From the NCBI GenBank assembly GCA_964036195.1, contig OZ038457.1, positions 10,939,147-11,003,146 of the forward strand: a stretch of DNA of 64,000 bases, in the 5' to 3' direction. The DNA comes from Sphaerolaimus hirsutus (taxonomy: Eukaryota > Nematoda > Chromadorea > Monhysterida > Sphaerolaimidae). Of the stretch, positions 27,698 through 54,165 are shown one piece after another. Position 1 is the stretch's first letter, and each line of letters begins with the position of its first letter. The position numbers were made by a program, and so were the translations under genes. Under the pieces are notes generated by a model. It was given only the letters and a program-made list of their open reading frames with translations, was not told the DNA's origin and searched no databases.

Positions 27698-27813
27698 GAC
27701 CCGCCCAATACGATCAGCGGCACGGCCACGGGCAGCGGCAGCGTCACCACCACGGGCGCGGCCGCCAGCCAGCAGAACACCGGCCCCAGCGCGAGGACCA
27801 GGAGCAAGACCAG
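27698..27813 (+). CDS. Exon 1 (first recognised) of the GC-rich gene
   Basis: The exon follows a CAG acceptor at 27695-27697 and reads from phase 0 (DPPNTISGTATGSGS...), rich in Ser, Thr, Gly and Ala and ending with basic residues. Two donors are possible: GT at 27814, exactly at the terminus of the inserted palindromic element, or GT at 27832, 18 bases inside it. Because they differ by 18 bases, both leave phase 2 and both join in frame to the exon at 28011. A different frame here reads His/Arg/Gln-rich but does not continue sensibly across the intron. Confidence 0.65.
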
Positions 27814-30800
27814 GTGGCAATCCCTGAGCCTGTGAAGCGCCCTGGAAGATGGAAAATGTCACGCAAAGCGTCAAAAGTCACGTAAAGTGCCCGGCAAAAT
27901 GGCAAACGTTATGGTTTGCCACTTTGCCGGGCATTTTACGTGACTTTTGACGCTTTGCGTGACATTTTCCATCTTCCCGGGCGTTTTACAGGGTCCGGGA
28001 CTGCCCCCAGGGCCACCACCGCCGCGCAGCAGCCCGCGCCCGACCACCACGACGAGGGCGAGCAGGCGGGCCCGTCGGGCGTCGCCGCGACCGCGCCGCT
28101 GCGCAAAAGGGCGTCGTCGGGGGGGCCGGCCGAGTGCAGTTCGGTACGTTGGCTGGGTTACGTAGGTATATTGTTTCTGTGTCAGTCTGGGGCCACTCCC
28201 GGACTCTGTAAAATGTTCTATGAAATGTGAAATGCCATGCAAAGTGTCAAGAGACATGTAAAATTCTCTGTAAAATGGCAAACGAAATTTTGTCATTTTA
28301 CACGGCACTTCACATGACCGTTGACACTTGACACATTTGACATTTGACCGGACATTTTACAGGGTCTGGTAGTCACACCTGGAGTCGCCAGTGACAAGTG
28401 AACCAATCGCCAGACCCTGTAAAATGCCCTGTAAAATGTCAAATGCCATGCAAAGTGTCAAAAGTCATGTCAAATGCCCAGTAAAATGGAAAACGTACGT
28501 TTTCCACTTTGCCGGGCATTTTACATGACTTTTGACACTTTGCATGACATTTGACATTTTACAGGGCATTTAACAGGGTCTGGGACTGGCACCAGGAAAC
28601 GAATGAGAGCCGTGAGAGCATTCATTTCATAAATATTAACGTAGATGTCGCCACAGTTTTGATATCCGGTGATTCATAAAAATTATAAATGGTTAAATCG
28701 CTCCTCCGAGGTGACAGAAATTTCTAAATATTTTTAAAGTTGGGCCAGGTTAGCAGGGACGTATCCAGGATTTTTGAGCGGGGGGCTGCTTGTTTACGGA
28801 ACCCCGGCGAACGGGGGGCTCAGCCCCCCCCCTAAAATTTTACCTGCATAGTGACGGAATGGCGCCATGGCGCTGGCGCCATTCGTAAAGACCCGGACGA
28901 AAAAAATGAGAAATATTTTTTTAAATTTTTGACGTTTTTTTCCGAGCCCCATGATAACTTTGTAGAGACGCCACCCGCATCAAAATGTAGCCCTAACATT
29001 TCTCTACAGGAACCCCCGGGGGGACCCCTGTAGCTGCTTTGACGCGGCCGCAGGGGCGCCTCCTGTAAAAATGTTTCATTTTTGGGTTGGTCAAAAAAAA
29101 TGAGAAATCCAAACCCATTTTTTTTGCGCTCTTTACACGCGATGTGTAAAGAGCGCAATCAGTTGCGATTTGGATATTCCTGTACAGAAATGCACGGGCT
29201 ATCGTTTGATATGGCTCGCGATGCTTGTATCATGAAATTTTTGGGGTAAATTTGACTTCTAAAATTTTCGTCATTTTCGGTCAGTTTTTCGCGATTTTGA
29301 CGCCATTTTGTCAAGTGCTAGCCTGAATCTGCATGGAGGGGAGCGAAAATTGAATGAAAGATGCACAAAAACATGGCGCATCTTTCTACACACTCCAAAT
29401 TCCACAAAACCCCCCTAGAAAAAAGTTGTATATGAACACAAAAAAACTTTTTGTTGTCCAAAAAGACATTCAGGTTCAGTTGGCCCTGGCAGTGCTCCGG
29501 CAGCAGCAGACGGGCCCACGCCATGCGCTCGCGGTTCTGGCGAGCCTTAAGAACAACTCTGCGTGGGCCACGAGGGATGGAAAGCCCCTCGTGGCCATGT
29601 AGCGCGCACGGACCTCAGACTGACGCGGCGCCGAAAAAGTTATTTTGAGTGTTCAAATAAAACTTTTTTTGAGGGTGGTTTTGGGGAATTTGGAGCGTGT
29701 AGAAAGATGCGCCATGTTTTTCTGCATCCTTCATTCAATTTTCGCTCCCCTCCATGCAGATTCAAGCTGGCACTTGACAAAATCGCGTCAAAATCGCTAA
29801 AAACCGACCAAAAATACATCAATCTTCACAGTCAAATTTACCCCAAAAAAATTAGGATACAAGTGTCGCCAGCCATCTCAAACGAAAGCCGGTGCATTTC
29901 TGTACAGGAATATCCAAACGACATCCTCTTGCGCTCTTTACACAACGCGTGTAAAGAGCGCAAAAAAATGGGTTTGGATTTCTCATTTTTTTTGACCACC
30001 CCAAAAATGAAAAATTTTTACGGGAGGCGCCCCTGCGGCCGCGTCAAAGCAGCTACAGGGGTCCCCCCAGGGATTCCTGTAGAGAAATGTTAGGGCTACA
30101 TTTTGATGCGGGTGGTCCCCCAAAAAATTACTCTGGGGGGGAATAAAAATTGATTGAAATTTAAAAAAACGATTTCTCATTTTTTTCGTCCGGGTCTTTA
30201 GGCGCCACGCTATGGTGCCATTGGCGCCAGCGCCAGAAAGCGTTGTAAATGTATGTAAATATACGTACATTCACTACGAAAGGTACATTATTGGGTGCAT
30301 TTCCTGGTATATGGGTCCACGGGGACCGACATGCTGAAAATACCATGTGTTTAGGGGGCAAATGCGCCCTTGCGCGCAAAATGTTTGCAAACACCATCGC
30401 AAAATTTGTACTAAAAGTTGCATTTTCGGGGTGTTTTAGGTGTTTCATGTCTCACCCCGGGAAGGGGGGGGGGCTGCAGCCCCCCGCCCCCCCTGGATAC
30501 GTCCAGTTCAGTACAAAATGTTCAGTTAGAGAGTTAAAAATAGGCAATAAGACTGGTCTTGAATGGGGAGAAGGTAAATACAAAAATCAGCGTTTGATTG
30601 TGGTAGCCCTAAAATGTGGCGAAATGTGGGAATGTGTAGCGATGGGATAGACCTATATGTGGCTTATATTCTGACAAAAGTTCCACGGTCGACTTTTACG
30701 TCGACTTGTTACATTTATCGTTTCTTCTAAGGTGTATGGCTTCTTTAAAAATATATACCTGTATACCGTATTTCCTCGAAATACCCCCCCGGGGGTTTAT

Positions 30801-33800
30801 TGTTTCAGAGTGAGAATTTTGAGAGAAAAACGTGAAAAATGCAACAATAACCACCATTTTTAAGTTTTTACAGCCTTATATAAGGATGTCGATGGTATAA
30901 ACGACGTTCTAACGTAACACAGTAAGTGTTTTGAACGTCTGTTATGCGTTTCCCGGACCACAAATCCATAGTGCCCATTTTGAGGGGGGGTATTTCGAGG
31001 GAGGGGTATTTCGAGGAAATACGGTATGTTGATTCATAACCATATTTGGGAGTTTTTTAACAAAACTTTGTTTTTAAAAAAACCCCGGGTCGTATAAAAA
31101 ACAACGTTTTCCATCTCTACTCAAACCCATATCTACTCATACTCATAAATATGTGGGAACTTGAGATTATATTTGGGATTTTTTGGGAATTTTTAAAAAC
31201 TTTTCATTTGAACTTTTAAAAACTTTGAGTCACAAAAAAAAGTTATCATCCCTGTTAAAGCGACAAATTCTCGTGAACCCTGAGTAGCGTTGACTCCTAC
31301 CTGCTTTTTTAATTAAACAAAATTTTTAATGCAAGAAACGAAGAGAACTCATGGAATGGAAGGGACTGACTAGAACGAACATTTTTCCGGCAGTTTCTCA
31401 TTTTATCCACGTACACGAACTCCTTGAATGTCCAAATCCTGGCGACCCGTTAGGGCACGCCCACTGAAAACCTCGCTCTCTCAACCGACCACAATACCTT
31501 TCAACCCGCAGAAGCGGCCCCGCCTCGCCGCGGGCGACCAGCCGGGCACGTCGGGCGCGCAGCCGCCGCCGCAGTCGCCGCCCTTCTCCGATCCGGGCGT
31601 GCCGGCGGCCGCGTCCACCCCGATCCTCGACCCCGGCGCGCCGGTCGCCGCGTCCACCCCGCTGCAGCAGGTGCCAGTCCCGGACCCGGTAAACGTACGT
31701 TTGCCATTTTCCAGGGCATATTACGTGACTTTTGACACTTCGCTTGACAATTCACATTTTACATGGTCTTTGACTGCCCCCAGGCGGTGCCGGCCTTCTT
31801 CGCGGACCTTTTCGGGCTCGAGGCGTCGGCTGCGGAGGCCAGCTCGCTCAGCGAGCCCAGCTCGGCGCCCGACGAGCCCGACGAGGACTCGGACGACCCG
31901 TTCGCCGAGCCGCCGCTGGAAGAGCAGATCCAGAACGACCAGGACCTGCGCCAGTGGCTGCTCGATGAAATGGCCGAGGTGGGTTGCTTGCAGGGTACGC
32001 GGTTGATTTTGAGAGTGCGTTGTTTTTTTTCATGGTGGATGTGTCGTAAAAATATGGCGTTTTTTATGTCGAGTGGTTAGGTTCTGGAAAAATAGCAAAA
32101 ATTGAATATAAATATGTATGTATGATATAGCGACGTGTTGTATCGTGTCAAATGTATGCGGGAATATCGATCTCACTTTGTCACATTGGAAAAACTGCAA
32201 TCTCATCTAACCCCCCCCCCCTCGGTGTATTTTTTCTTCACACTATCTTTCTCCTACTTTACTGGTGAATTTGATGCACGACTTTTATTTTACATGTGGC
32301 CATTACATTTAACAATATTTTGGTGCTTTTTACAGGGTGCGGAACTGCTTATTTACGGTACAGATTTTCAATAGCGAACTGGCGTCCTGGTCCGTCAGCA
32401 ATTAGGATTTTTATTGACTAATAGCCCGATAGCTCAATGGCGCTGTGATGCACCAAATCAATGTGAATTGTGCCCGTCGATGGTGATGGGATGACACTAT
32501 GGCGCTGGCGCCACTTGAGGGCGCCAAAAGTGGTTGTGAATTGCATGGGTACTGGGGCCAATTCTAAAAATGGCAACTGATAAGTAGAGTTATGTTGTGA
32601 GTCAAGGGACGAGTAAATTAGAATATACTGCCCATGCCTCTTACTTGTTATTTCACTGCCGTATTTCTACTAATAGAACGGCATAACTCCAATATAACGG
32701 CATATACAAAAGAGCGGAAGGTAAGAAAGCTGACGAAAAAATAGAACGGCGCTCTTTTATTAGAAGAAATACGGTAATCGTTTCACAAAAAAATAACTTT
32801 TCTCCACACTTTTCTGGCTACATCAGGGCGCCCTTTCTTACGTAACACGATTTTTCCGCGCGCGTCATACCATCACCAACACGTGTCCCACCCACTCACA
32901 GGCGACCATGGAGCTGCGGGACGCGCTGCGCGAGCACGACGGCCGCGCCAACGACGCGCAGGTGCGGGACGCGGTGGCCGACTGGTGCGCCGCCATGGCC
33001 GACTTGGTGCCGATGTCGGGCGGCTTCCTGCACCGCCTGATCGACCACGAGGGCTGGATGGAGCTCCACCGGGGCGTCTTCATCGTCGCGTTCGGCGTGA
33101 TGGTGAACGAAGCCTCGGGGGAGGTTAGTGAATGGGGGGGGGGGTTGATTGGGGGGATGGTGTAGGGAAGCGATCAGGGACTGTTCTAGACCCTGTAAAA
33201 ATGTCAAATGTCACCAAAATATCAAAAGCCATATAAAATTCCCGGTAAAATACTTTGTTATTTTACGGGGCATTTCACATGACTTTTGACACTTTGCATG
33301 ACATTCGACATTTTTACAAGGCGTTTTACAGGGTCTGGGACTGCCCACATAAATAGGTGAATTCCGCAAATGGAGAAAAAAGCATTTGAGAAGTGATAAG
33401 TATAATGAGAAGTGAGAAGTGAAATGGCAAATAAAACGTTCCAAGTAAAAATGTGAAGTGAAAAGAAGTCAAATGAGACATGAAAAGTGAAGCCAGATAA
33501 GAAGTGAAGAGCGCGAAGTCAAGTAAAGTGTTAAGTGAAGTAGAAGTAAAAGGTCAAAAGCGACGTATTTACAGTAATTTTAGACTTGAGAAAGTTTATA
33601 GAAAAGTCAAAATTTTACTTAACTTTGAACTTTTCATATATTAATTCAAATTTTATTTTACTAATCACTTCTCACATGTTTTTTTTTATTTCCACTTGCG
33701 GAATTGGCACCATGTTTGATCGATCCATGTGCGCCAGAAACGCCGAACAACTCCGCGAAGCACGGCTTGTTGCAACGGCTTGAAGTATGAAGTATATATT

Positions 33801-35583
33801 ATACCCAATGTAACTTTGATTCACGCCATTTTAATTAATGAGCTGTGATAAATTATTGATAAAATAGTTTAATGCCCGTTGACGCGAAATTGAAGATAAA
33901 TACGAAACGCAACGATAGCGCGAAAAGGACGGGGGCCTCGCCGTAATGAAAACCCGGCCGTAATGAAAGCCTGGACGTAATGTATGCCTACCCGGCCGTA
34001 ATGAAAGCCTGGCCGTAATGTAGCACCCCCTACATTACGGCCAGGCTTTCATTACGGCCGGGTAGGCATACATTACGTCCAGGCTTTCATTACGGCCGGG
34101 TTTTCATTACGGCCGCTACACCCTCCGCGAAAAGTGTGTGAGTAATGATGTGAAAAGCGCCAGGGTTTTAGCGTCAAGCGCCAAGAGCGCCATGGCGCTT
34201 TTCTGGATTGAAGCGCCAAGCGCCAATGGCGTCAGTGGATTATGGCGCAAAGCGCCAAAAGCGCCAGCGCCAAAAAATGTGTAAAATCTTGCTACATTGT
34301 GAAATGTACCTAAAACGGTAAAATCTACCAACTGCACACTTTGTATGGTAATTTAGCATCATGCATCTGACTGATTGATCAAAGTTTTTCACACAAAAAC
34401 GTGCCATATTTCCTAGAATTGAAATCTCCACCCCTTAAAACCATCCAATATGTAAGTGACACCCGCCCAGCAAAATACCTCCTAGAAATGCTGTACACAT
34501 CATATACACATGTTACATGATTTTATTATTCGCTTGCATTAAGTATGAACTTCCATGATAACACTAACGAAATGATAAAAATATAATACCAATAAAATTT
34601 AACCGCAGAATAATAGTCCCCTAGAATTTATGCCCTCAAATTTGGCTGGTGAAAAAATCAACAGGGGCATTTCAGGGAAATACGGTATTTACAATTTTTT
34701 AATCATTTTTCGTAAATCGTCAAAACTTACAATGGTTTGATTTGACAGTCATTTTTGATGGATGTCTTGAAGAAATTGATATTGCTTCTGTGGCGCTTTT
34801 TTGGCGCTTTTAAAATTGCTAGCGCCAAGCGCCAATGGCGCCACAACATTATAGCGCCAAGCGCCAAAAGCGCCATGGCGCTTTTCTAGATCACGGCACC
34901 AAGCGCCAATGGCGCCACGGCAAAAAGGCGCCAAGCGCCAAAAGCGCCATGGCGCTTTTTGCTTTGGCGCTAGTGCCAAGCGCCAGCGCCATGGCGCTTT
35001 TACATCACTATGCGTGTGTCGATTTTTTCATTCACTCACCCCCCCCCCCCCTACCTCGTAGATCGTCCAGTCCAGGATGGCGGTGCTGCGGCGCGCAGTC
35101 TACGAACAGTTCGGCGTGGCGGCCGCTTCGCGCCCCGTGCTCGGCCGCTGGGTCAACCAGAACGTCGCCGCGCTGCAGGCGGATTGGCACCCGCCCGCAC
35201 CGGTGCCCGACAACCCGCTGGCCGGGCCCGCCCCGCCCGCCGGCCCCTTCGTCGACATGGGCCCGTCGCCCCCGGCCACGCCGCCGCAGCCGCCCAACGA
35301 CTCGGCGGCGTCGGGCGACCCGTCGGGCTTGGACGGGTCGCCGGGGCCCGACGAAGTCTTCGCGCCGGTGGCCGGGCCGTTGGCGGTCGCCATCGCCAAC
35401 CACCTGGGGCAGATCCAGTTGGCGCCGCCGCCGCTGCCCGTCGCGCCCGCGCCCGGACTGGCGCCCGGCCGGCCGCTCACGAGGCTCATGATGCGCCGGC
35501 ACCCCGACCAAGCCTGGCAGCAGTTGAGCAAAGAGGATGTGTGGCGGCAGGCGGATGCGTACGTGCGCGCCCTGCGCATTTAG
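27698..35583 (+). CDS. Six-exon GC-rich gene, product unknown, 5' end missing
   Basis: Six GC-rich open segments on one strand join through GT/AG boundaries with compatible phases: 27698-27813 (or -27831), 28011-28143, 31512-31670 (or -31688), 31784-31978, 32902-33123 and 35062-35583, the last ending in TAG. The conceptual protein has about 450 residues. Its N-terminal half is Ala/Pro/Ser/Thr-rich and probably disordered. Two basic clusters (LRKRASS, KRPRL) could be nuclear localisation signals. An acidic stretch (DEPDEDSDD) follows, then a more folded-looking part rich in Trp, Met and His in exon 5, and a last exon with a Pro/Gly-rich linker between predicted helices. No signal peptide, membrane segment or familiar catalytic motif is visible. 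No ATG opens the first exon and a CAG acceptor precedes it, so upstream exons are missing or unrecognised. I see no AATAAA close after the stop. The exon chain is well supported; the function is unknown. Confidence 0.75.
27814..28010 (+). mobile_element. Intron 1 = complete palindromic introner-like MITE
   Basis: The whole intron is one palindrome. The left arm (to about 27909) and right arm (from about 27915) are reverse complements across a short centre at the sequence ttatgg. The element starts GTGGCAATCCC and ends GGGACTGCCCC; it is flanked by CAG at 27811-27813 and CAG at 28008-28010, which I read as a 3-bp target duplication. The left CAG|GT supplies a donor and the right duplicated CAG supplies the acceptor. 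Removing the element and one CAG restores a continuous reading frame between the flanking exons. An internal donor at 27832 is the alternative splice site. Confidence 0.8.
28011..28143 (+). CDS. Exon 2 of the GC-rich gene
   Basis: The exon begins directly after the CAG that closes the palindromic intron, needs two upstream bases to complete its first codon (matching exon 1), and ends TCG followed by a good GTACGT donor in phase 0. It encodes an Ala/Pro-rich stretch with an acidic and His-rich patch (PDHHDEGEQAGPSG) and a basic patch (LRKRASS). Base composition is strongly GC-rich against an AT-rich background. Confidence 0.7.
28190..28378. mobile_element. Introner-family MITE copy inside intron 2
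   Basis: The palindrome has termini GGGCCACTCCCGG and AGTCACAC and shares internal motifs with the intron 1 element (ctctgtaaaatg, cattttacagggtctg). It is flanked by CTG at 28187-28189 and CTG at 28379-28381. CTG is CAG on the other strand, so this copy fits the same target rule in reverse orientation. It lies within an existing intron and need not be spliced on its own. Confidence 0.75.
28390..28592. mobile_element. Second introner-family MITE copy inside intron 2
   Basis: A palindrome runs from about 28410 (agaccctgtaaaatg) to 28592, where it ends GGGACTGGCAC followed by CAG at 28593-28595. The centre is near 28497. The left terminus has diverged and its exact first base is uncertain; a CAG stands at 28389-28391. 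Arms match the 28190 copy and the intron 1 element. Confidence 0.65.
28754..30504. mobile_element. 1.75-kb fold-back element inside intron 2
   Basis: The outer ends are CAGGGACGTATCCAGG and CCTGGATACGTCC, the termini of the 449-bp hAT-like element at 4351, including its G-rich subterminal tracts. Inside lie long inverted arms: about 28900-29440 pairs with about 29640-30195, for instance the motif with a NotI-like gcggccgc near 29045 and again near 30037. Each arm holds a small hairpin in which gcgctctttacac is followed by its complement. The loop at 29440-29645 contains a GC-rich exon-like island. No clear target duplication is visible. Confidence 0.7.
29474..29602 (+). pseudogene. Exon-like GC-rich island in the fold-back loop
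   Basis: After a CAG acceptor at 29471-29473, a GC-rich frame of 42 codons ends in TAG (VQLALAVLRQQQTGPRHALA... to ...GKPLVAM). It is bounded on both sides by AT-rich inverted arms of the element. It looks like a terminal coding exon carried by the element. It could also be an alternative last exon of the surrounding gene, since exon 2 ends in phase 0 and this frame can follow it. I do not recognise the peptide. Confidence 0.4.
30775..31024. mobile_element. Complete CCGTATTTCCTCGAAATACC MITE in intron 2
   Basis: Runs from CCGTATTTCCTCGAAATACC to TTTCGAGGAAATACGG, flanked by TA on both sides. Its interior is nearly the same as the 59214 copy (tggtataaacga, taagtgttttgaacgtctgttatgc). 31025-31511 is AT-rich and unassigned. 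Confidence 0.85.
31512..31670 (+). CDS. Exon 3 of the GC-rich gene
   Basis: The exon follows an acceptor (caacccgcag) in phase 0 and encodes KRPRLAAGDQPGTSG and then a Pro/Ala-rich stretch with two similar blocks (SDPGVPAAASTP and LDPGAPVAASTP), an internal 14-codon duplication. Donor choices are GT at 31671, exactly at the element terminus, or GT at 31689, 18 bases inside it. Both keep phase 0. The second choice would add six residues (VPVPDP) encoded by the transposon terminus. Confidence 0.75.
31671..31783 (+). mobile_element. Intron 3 = internally deleted introner-like MITE
   Basis: The intron opens GTGCCAGTCCCGGACCC, the canonical left terminus of the family. It then jumps within a few bases to right-arm sequence (tttgccattttccagggc ... 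cttttgacacttcgc) and ends GACTGCCC followed by CAG. It is flanked by CAG at 31668-31670 and CAG at 31781-31783. The left arm has been deleted, so only about half of the palindrome remains. Excision restores an in-frame join (CTG CAG CAG, then GCG GTG). Confidence 0.8.
31784..31978 (+). CDS. Exon 4 of the GC-rich gene
   Basis: Exactly 65 codons in phase 0 at both ends, with a GAG|GTGGGT donor. It starts AVPAFFADLFGLEAS, passes through an acidic run (DEPDEDSDDPFAEPP), and ends with a probable helix (QDLRQWLLDEMAE). The acidic-hydrophobic make-up would suit an interaction or activation segment, but that is only inference. Confidence 0.8.
32662..32774. mobile_element. TA-inserting MITE (CCGTATTTCTNCTAATAG family) in intron 4
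   Basis: A short palindrome running from CCGTATTTCTACTAATAGAA to TATTAGAAGAAATACGG followed by TA. Copies at 21904, 47157 and 61892 share the same ends. The remainder of intron 4 (31979-32901) holds AT-rich unique sequence, a C-tract at 32212 and a small GCGCC remnant near 32500. Confidence 0.7.
32902..33123 (+). CDS. Exon 5 of the GC-rich gene
   Basis: 74 codons, phase 0 at both ends, after a cccactcacag acceptor and before GAG|GTTAGT. This is the most domain-like part of the protein: MELRDALREHDGRANDAQ, then VADWCAAMADLV, a Met/Gly turn, and GWMELHRGVFIVAFGVMVNE. It looks helical with conserved-type Trp and His. I do not recognise the fold. The opposite strand is also open but lacks splice continuity with the neighbouring segments. 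Confidence 0.8.
33178..33347. mobile_element. Introner-family MITE copy in intron 5
   Basis: A palindrome with the family motifs (ctagaccctgtaaaaatg at the left, cgttttacagggtctggg at the right, centre near 33255). A CAG stands at 33175-33177; the right flank reads ACA, so the target duplication has decayed. It abuts the second-family element at 33357. Confidence 0.6.
33357..33710. mobile_element. Second-family (GTGCC terminus) MITE in intron 5
   Basis: The termini are GTGAATTCCGCAAATGG and CCACTTGCGGAATTGGCAC, like the copies at 51492 and 60717. The interior is a run of short agtgaga/aagtg motifs with partial complements near the right end. The flanks are TAG and CAT, so a CAG duplication is not preserved. 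Confidence 0.55.
33941..34112. repeat. Perfect 83-bp inverted repeat with 6-base loop
   Basis: Arms 33941-34023 and 34030-34112 are exact reverse complements, separated by cacccc. Each arm contains four copies of a cgtaatg motif alternating with gaaagcctgg- and cccggc-type spacers. It lies in intron 5 of the GC-rich gene, so a transcript would contain an extremely stable hairpin. No target duplication is obvious. Confidence 0.9.
34139..35009. repeat. GCGCC-rich elements in intron 5
   Basis: Two blocks (about 34155-34275 and 34790-35000) are built of short palindromic words such as gcgccatggcgc, ggcgctt and aagcgcca. The first opens with taatgatgtgaaaagcgcc and the second closes with ggcgcttttacatcacta, resembling terminal repeats of the type TAGTGATG...CATCACTA. 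The AT-rich interval contains an old fragment of the CCGTATTTCC family near 34620-34686. Open frames here (repeated MAPLALGA-like peptides) are artefacts. Confidence 0.6.
35062..35583 (+). CDS. Last exon of the GC-rich gene
   Basis: The exon follows a long C-tract and a ctacctcgtag acceptor, in phase 0 with exon 5, and runs 173 codons to TAG. It starts with a helical basic segment (MAVLRRAVYEQFGVAAASRP), then has a long Pro/Gly/Ala/Asp linker, and ends with a second ordered segment (HPDQAWQQLSKEDVWRQADA and ALRI at the C-terminus). The reverse strand and the other frames are also open because of extreme GC content. I chose this frame because only it continues exon 5 and ends in a stop at the point where GC content falls. 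Confidence 0.75.
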   Translation: MVQSRMAVLRRAVYEQFGVAAASRPVLGRWVNQNVAALQADWHPPAPVPDNPLAGPAPPAGPFVDMGPSPPATPPQPPNDSAASGDPSGLDGSPGPDEVFAPVAGPLAVAIANHLGQIQLAPPPLPVAPAPGLAPGRPLTRLMMRRHPDQAWQQLSKEDVWRQADAYVRALRI

Positions 35584-54057: not shown

Positions 54058-54165
54058 CATGTGCCAGTCTCAGACCCTGTAAAATGTCAAATGTCATGTA
54101 AAATGTCATGCAAAGTGTCAAAAGTCATGTAAAATACCATGTAAAATTGTAAACGAAATTGTGAA
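54058..54165. mobile_element. Introner-family left arm, truncated
   Basis: Begins GTGCCAGTCTCAGACCCTG and ends about the centre of the palindrome (ccatgtaaaattgtaaacgaa). The right arm is missing. Confidence 0.6.

Follow-up and report, generated by a model that had tools for sequence, protein, structure and literature searches.

The question raised by this locus is whether two introns of one gene are themselves whole transposons, i.e. introners, elements that create an intron when they insert. We analysed a stretch of 64,000 nucleotides from the nematode Sphaerolaimus hirsutus (contig OZ038457.1, positions 10,939,147 to 11,003,146 of the forward strand; the window), and searched the 348-Mb assembly holding it. 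Introns 1 and 3 of a gene in the window are copies of an almost palindromic element that occurs throughout the genome. We are confident, short of certainty, that this element is a palindromic DNA transposon which inserts into coding exons and is spliced as introns, and hence that an animal genome carries a family of introners.

Two element introns in the window gene

Positions are those of the window and all features of the gene are on the plus strand. Direct reading places intron 1 at 27814-28010 and intron 3 at 31671-31783, each consisting of one copy of the element plus a CAG, with a second CAG preceding. In intron 1 the left CAG (27811-27813), which ends exon 1, is followed by the element, GTGGCAATCCC...GGGACTGCCCC (27814-28007; GTGGC...GCCCC), and by the right CAG (28008-28010), the target-site copy that gives the AG of the 3' splice site. 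In intron 3 the same arrangement is formed by the left CAG (31668-31670, the end of exon 3), the element GTGCCAGTCCC...TTTGACTGCCCC (31671-31780; GTGCC...GCCCC) and the right CAG (31781-31783), which again gives the AG. The first copy folds into a near-perfect hairpin (-171 kcal/mol, z -22), and the second is shortened internally to 110 bp, compared with a consensus of 189 bp.

When the exons are joined by hand, 27698-27813 with 28011-28143 (exons 1 and 2) and 31512-31670 with 31784-31978 (exons 3 and 4), the frame stays open, in phase 2 and phase 0, respectively. The exons are placed from the sequence and from codon-position differences; the first of those seen presumably starts at a CAG|GAC boundary. 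A reading made from the sequence only had described both introns as whole palindromic elements between CAG repeats whose removal restores the frame, and both statements hold. The left termini that it gave, GTGCC and GTGGC, are also correct. The right terminus GGCAC is not, as both copies end in GCCCC, and GGCAC belongs to a copy ending at 28592.

No fitting Pfam family was found for the window gene (best E 0.21). The gene nevertheless looks real and coding, because its differences from paralogue copies fall mostly on third codon positions (85:71:149 at positions 1:2:3). The intron-1 element is present in all five paralogue stretches read (L040-L044) and the intron-3 element in all four that extend through intron 3. 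Since these copies are filled, both insertions predate the duplications of the gene and are not recent in it.

The element family

Exact 14-base words made of a triplet and the left end GTGCCAGTCCC were found 1706 times with CAG and 1494 times with CTG, against 3 and 0 for the reversed words. With the right end the counts were 3584 (CAG) and 2581 (CTG), against 0 and 0. A genome-wide count had been suggested as a check on the original reading, and it clearly bears out a family. Counts allowing two mismatches (3250 and 5236) are not counts of elements, because the GGGGC type of end lies two mismatches off.

A consensus of 189 bp was built from 86 sampled copies. Between positions 5 and 185 it matches its reverse complement at 99.4% identity, and the symmetry breaks down in the outer four bases, which read GTGC on the donor side and CCCC on the acceptor side; the left end was set by the search word, and the right end was free of it. 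As the ends differ and the rest is palindromic, the element is near-symmetric except where splice sites are needed. The copies in the window introns match this consensus at 83% over 194 bp, and at 88-91% in three pieces, and the word CAG+GTGCCAGTCCC is itself present at intron 3. Given this identity, and 1706 occurrences of that word compared with 3 of its reverse, the window copies are members of one family and the match is not due to chance.

Target site

The sample used here is the first 100 exact 28-base matches among those listed, 58 of them preceded by AG and 42 not. All 100 loci were fetched, the last 35 as shorter stretches, and 96 had a recognisable right end. Among these 96, the left/right triplets were CAG/CAG in 39, CTG/CTG in 20, CTG/CAG in 9, CAG/CTG in 2 and others in 26, so that 59 of the 70 sites having CWG (CAG or CTG) on both sides carry equal triplets. 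Additionally, exact left and right ends were paired along C1:1-10.46 Mb. A partner was found for 37 of 131 left ends, and the triplets were equal in 32 of the 37 pairs (CAG/CAG 18, CTG/CTG 14, CTG/CAG 3, CAG/CTG 2).

The equal triplets are a 3-bp duplication of the target, which is CWG. The CAG target proposed earlier was therefore too narrow, CTG-flanked left ends being nearly as many. Together with the palindromic consensus, the equal triplets give the element the signature of a transposon, i.e. terminal inverted repeats and target-site duplications.

Insertion into coding exons

To judge whether the sequence joined across each element is coding, we scored its codon usage. With this score, trained on five seed genes that were all sense and refined on 81 of the same loci, which could favour coding calls at elements, the 96 sites with 100-bp flanks were divided into 53 sense (the GT orientation), 9 antisense and 34 neither (p 1e-8). 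Longer flanks gave 56 sense, 8 antisense and 32 neither. Removal of the element thus restores a sense-coding frame across the rejoined site in 53 of 96 cases. As a baseline we used 649 random CWG sites in the 65 loci covered by 3-kb stretches, which gave 69 sense, 34 antisense and 546 neither. Element sites are coding at all far more often than these (62 of 96 vs 103 of 649; Fisher p 2e-22, odds ratio 9.7), and their sense share is higher (p 0.010). Extrapolating 53/96 to the 3200 exact left ends gives about 1770 introns, a rough estimate, as the sample holds the best-preserved copies.

Known proteins across the junction

Pfam was run in packed form, which lowers the scores, on the best open reading frames of each locus (at least 25 residues), one in sense and one in antisense. 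This test is independent of the codon-usage training except for the choice of frame. Loci run singly (30, then 10, of which 2 passed the cut-off) were picked by eye; the packed scans are the unselected test.

Protein homology runs through the predicted junction in 12 of 89 loci, with differing families. In ten of them a Pfam family crosses in the sense direction: homeodomain (L019), Piwi (L045), kinase (L054), urocanase (L057), SSF (L060), tetraspanin (L070), Oscp1 (L073), E1_dh (L076), calpain III (L077) and zinc finger (L106). Six of the ten exceeded the curated cut-off in the packed scan, and L054, L076, L077 and L106 only when run singly. The other two loci give gap-free alignments to solved proteins, L048 to GRK2 and L092 to IFT70. 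The clearest case is the homeodomain at L019, which we take to be Abd-B-like; it is complete (positions 1-57) and the element lies between the residues KYQ and TLELEKEF. The alignment of L076 to BCKDHA has no gap at the junction and one residue gapped elsewhere, and a paralogue of this gene on C2, 44% identical, is contiguous across the same point.

Among antisense reading frames (83 loci) the sole match above cut-off was a Kelch domain at L029, which duplicates L031; the match spans the junction by only three residues. The orientation of this element is undefined, since it has GTGCC at both ends. This copy adjoins a Kelch exon, and the part of C1 that holds it is duplicated. Matches below cut-off were set aside (sense: four weak ones, BKACE, NDK, DUF6077 and further Kelch-group matches; antisense: DUF5970 at L020). 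Genome-wide copies, a strong sense bias in coding sites and protein continuity all agree with the introner behaviour that had been suggested for the family, with splicing predicted.

A number of observations weigh against this interpretation. Splicing is predicted from protein continuity. No coding signal is seen at 34 of the 96 sites and another 9 look coding in antisense, which means that part of the copies do not act as introns within coding sequence. Only 12 of 89 loci gave homology through the junction; at L030 (LDL-receptor), L066 (PDE) and L086/L087 (Kelch) the matches stop beside the junction, and the Ig domain spanning it at L067 is just below cut-off (21.7 vs 21.8 bits). When exact ends were paired, 94 of the 131 left ends were left without an exact partner in range. 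An empty site was not found at the DNA level, and the five 10-kb paralogue stretches of the window gene held none. Furthermore, by our reckoning the donor CAG|GTGCCA would pair with canonical U1 over about six bases only. In three U1 genes read of 26 matches the 5' end is canonical, AAACTTACCTG, and these genes therefore do not explain the weak donor. Separately, a cluster of U1 small nuclear RNA genes, on both strands, was noted at C1:15.44-15.54 Mb.

Proposed mechanism and probable parent transposon

In the mechanism that we propose, a non-autonomous, almost perfectly palindromic DNA transposon of 189 bp would insert into a coding exon, its transposition being carried out by a PHIS transposase acting in trans. 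The left end, GTGC, would supply the GT of the 5' splice site, and the duplicated CAG to the right, preceded by the C-rich right end GACTGCCCC, would supply the AG. Splicing would then take out the element and one CAG and restore the old coding sequence, and a hairpin in the pre-mRNA may bring the two splice sites together. Where the target is CTG, this element would produce GT..TG introns.

The NuwaI group of the PHIS superfamily is defined by CWG duplications, has ends usually starting with GGG and was reported from 16 animal genomes, according to the accessible text of Han et al. (PMC4482050). The present element shares the CWG duplication, the mark of that group. Its right end read inwards, GGGGCAGTCCC, also starts with GGG, whereas the donor end used as search word does not; it departs from a NuwaI-like end by two bases, and these two bases create the GT. 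Judged by its target duplication and its ends, the element is probably a miniature inverted-repeat transposable element (MITE) of NuwaI type in which GTGC has replaced GGGG at one end, the GGGG end presumably being the older state.

At least 163 DDE_Tnp_4 matches are present in the genome, and none was tied to the ends of the element. The comparison, made by eye, took in the four on C1 below 12 Mb, none of which comes closer than 5 kb to a listed exact end; the lists of right ends reach 10.46 and 11.28 Mb. Most of the listed matches, also inspected by eye, show a frame of about 300 amino acids with three to five in-frame TGA, mostly four; this group is either an amplified family that has become defective or a case of recoding. 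A second group has a frame of 257 amino acids without in-frame TGA.

CTG-flanked copies and alternative explanations

CTG/CTG copies make up 20 of the 96 sampled and include five of the twelve protein-confirmed junctions: OSCP1 (L073), BCKDHA (L076), calpain (L077), IFT70 (L092) and the zinc finger (L106). Keeping the frame at CTG/CTG needs removal as GT..TG or another unusual pair. That CTG-flanked copies are spliced as GT..TG introns has, in our judgement, about even odds. In the accessible text on human TG acceptors these occur as alternatives in 36 genes and never alone (PMC2374985).

It could instead be that only the CAG copies are introns and that the CTG-flanked ones are unspliced, being young, unfixed or gene-breaking insertions. 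We regard this as rather unlikely, though with some evidence in its favour. CAG is commoner among exact right ends (3584/6165) than among left ends (1706/3200, p 9e-6), as if AG acceptors were favoured, and the sample holds 9 CTG/CAG sites vs 2 CAG/CTG (p 0.065). In the exact-end census the two are just 3 vs 2, and the three are unusually long pairs; selection turning acceptor CTG into CAG is thus suggested by the sample and the end counts, and is not seen in the census. Moreover, CTG/CTG copies are sense-coding about as often as CAG/CAG copies (12/20 vs 28/39, p 0.39) and are themselves sense-biased (12 sense vs 2 antisense, p 0.013). No age difference between the two classes was detected (median identity to the consensus 0.928 for CTG/CTG vs 0.911 for CAG/CAG, p 0.21). 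The five CTG/CTG copies listed above interrupt conserved proteins, and for IFT70 the genome search at E 0.001 matched the two exons next to the element and nothing else. A still less probable explanation is that CTG-flanked copies are spliced at another AG, within the element or downstream, with the protein altered by some residues. An AG lies 19 nt before the rejoined exon in 10 of the 12 CTG-flanked copies listed, and in-frame AGs exist at L092, where an additional one leaves 30 extra nt (10 extra residues), and at L073, 18 nt downstream (6 missing residues). The shared AG, however, leaves 19 nt and hence a frameshift, and at L076, whose protein aligns gap-free at the site, the final 40 nt of the element and the 60 nt beyond contain no in-frame AG.

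The two remaining alternatives concern the family as a whole. Removal from somatic DNA instead of RNA, as in ciliates, is very improbable: precise excision between CWG repeats would restore genes without any need for an AG, but it should ignore the strand of the gene, and coding sites are 53 sense vs 9 antisense. The antisense Kelch match, the only one above cut-off, comes from the element with GTGCC at both ends and crosses by only three residues. Elimination of the ciliate type (internal eliminated sequences) was rejected on this strand bias. Hardly any weight is given, finally, to the window introns being ordinary introns that were later invaded and mostly replaced by MITEs. Relatives of the element do occur within the larger intron 2, but at introns 1 and 3 the ends of the element are the predicted splice junctions to the base, as at the twelve protein-confirmed sites. 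Had a MITE arrived later, remains of the former intron should persist beyond its ends.

Returning to the introner explanation, a more far-reaching version of it combines several of these steps, and we put it forward tentatively, at a little below an even chance. The change from GGGG to GTGC would have made a NuwaI-type MITE an introner, which may have seeded about a thousand or more introns, one of them in the Abd-B-like homeobox. About a fifth to a third of the copies would have TG as their only 3' splice site, and the spliceosome would accept C-W-G after a C-rich tract.

Relation to known systems

How introns arise is a long-standing question. Animals had almost no introners in the 2022 survey, whose accessible text reports them from two animal groups only among 3325 genomes, in families of 5 to >2000 copies (Gozashti et al. 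2022, PMC9860276). With the introners described there the present family has in common similar introns in unrelated genes, terminal inverted repeats, target-site duplications and gene enrichment, as well as one splice site coming from the element and one from the duplication, with the frame restored. The family tables of that survey could include the present family.

GT-TG splice sites are described, in the accessible text, for the introner classes IE-B (25 members) and IE-D (6) of the alga Micromonas (PMC3879977). Unlike in those classes, the same element would here give GT..AG or GT..TG depending on the CWG target. From NuwaI elements, as far as they are described in PMC4482050, it differs in its predicted role as an intron and in having GTGC at one end; the CWG duplications are shared, and GGG is seen at the acceptor end only. 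Numerous introns that break the GT/AG rule, as may occur at CTG targets here, are also described from another animal, Fritillaria borealis, where 95% of introns are non-canonical and U2AF is duplicated according to the available text (PMC13326754).

The family and its 3-bp target had been taken to be undescribed by the sequence-only reading. This is not so for the CWG duplications, which are known from NuwaI (PMC4482050, accessible text). Introners as such are also known; among the literature matches listed, none has a CWG target or a NuwaI-type origin. A later, larger introner survey reportedly appeared in 2025 and may include the present species. A large animal family in which the DNA target, the probable parent and the step to spliceability can be read from the sequence makes intron birth testable. 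Furthermore, the split between CAG and CTG is a built-in experiment on the 3' splice sites that an animal accepts.

Other features

Exon 5 of the window gene is placed at 32902-33138, with a presumed end, from the sequence and codon-position differences, and the probable last exon at 35065-35580, with a presumed start, from the reading frame and codon-position differences. Repeat comparison finds two relatives of the element within intron 2, one at 28190-28378 with CTG/CTG flanks, away from the splice sites, and one at 28401-28592 whose right end GGCAC is followed by CAG. Further relatives with decayed or missing ends are found at 33177-33347 and 54061-54155. A large inverted repeat at 28886-30200, also within intron 2, has arms of 239, 210 and 173 nt that are 76-90% complementary; it is probably a different mobile element, unrelated to the present one.

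Locus L039 is on the mitochondrial contig C762, which carries cox1 by Pfam and uses the invertebrate mitochondrial code. ARAGORN, set to the bacterial code, detected no tRNA in the 4.3 kb of this contig that were read. The neighbours of cox1 are presumably nad1, on one strand beside it, and atp6, directly after it.

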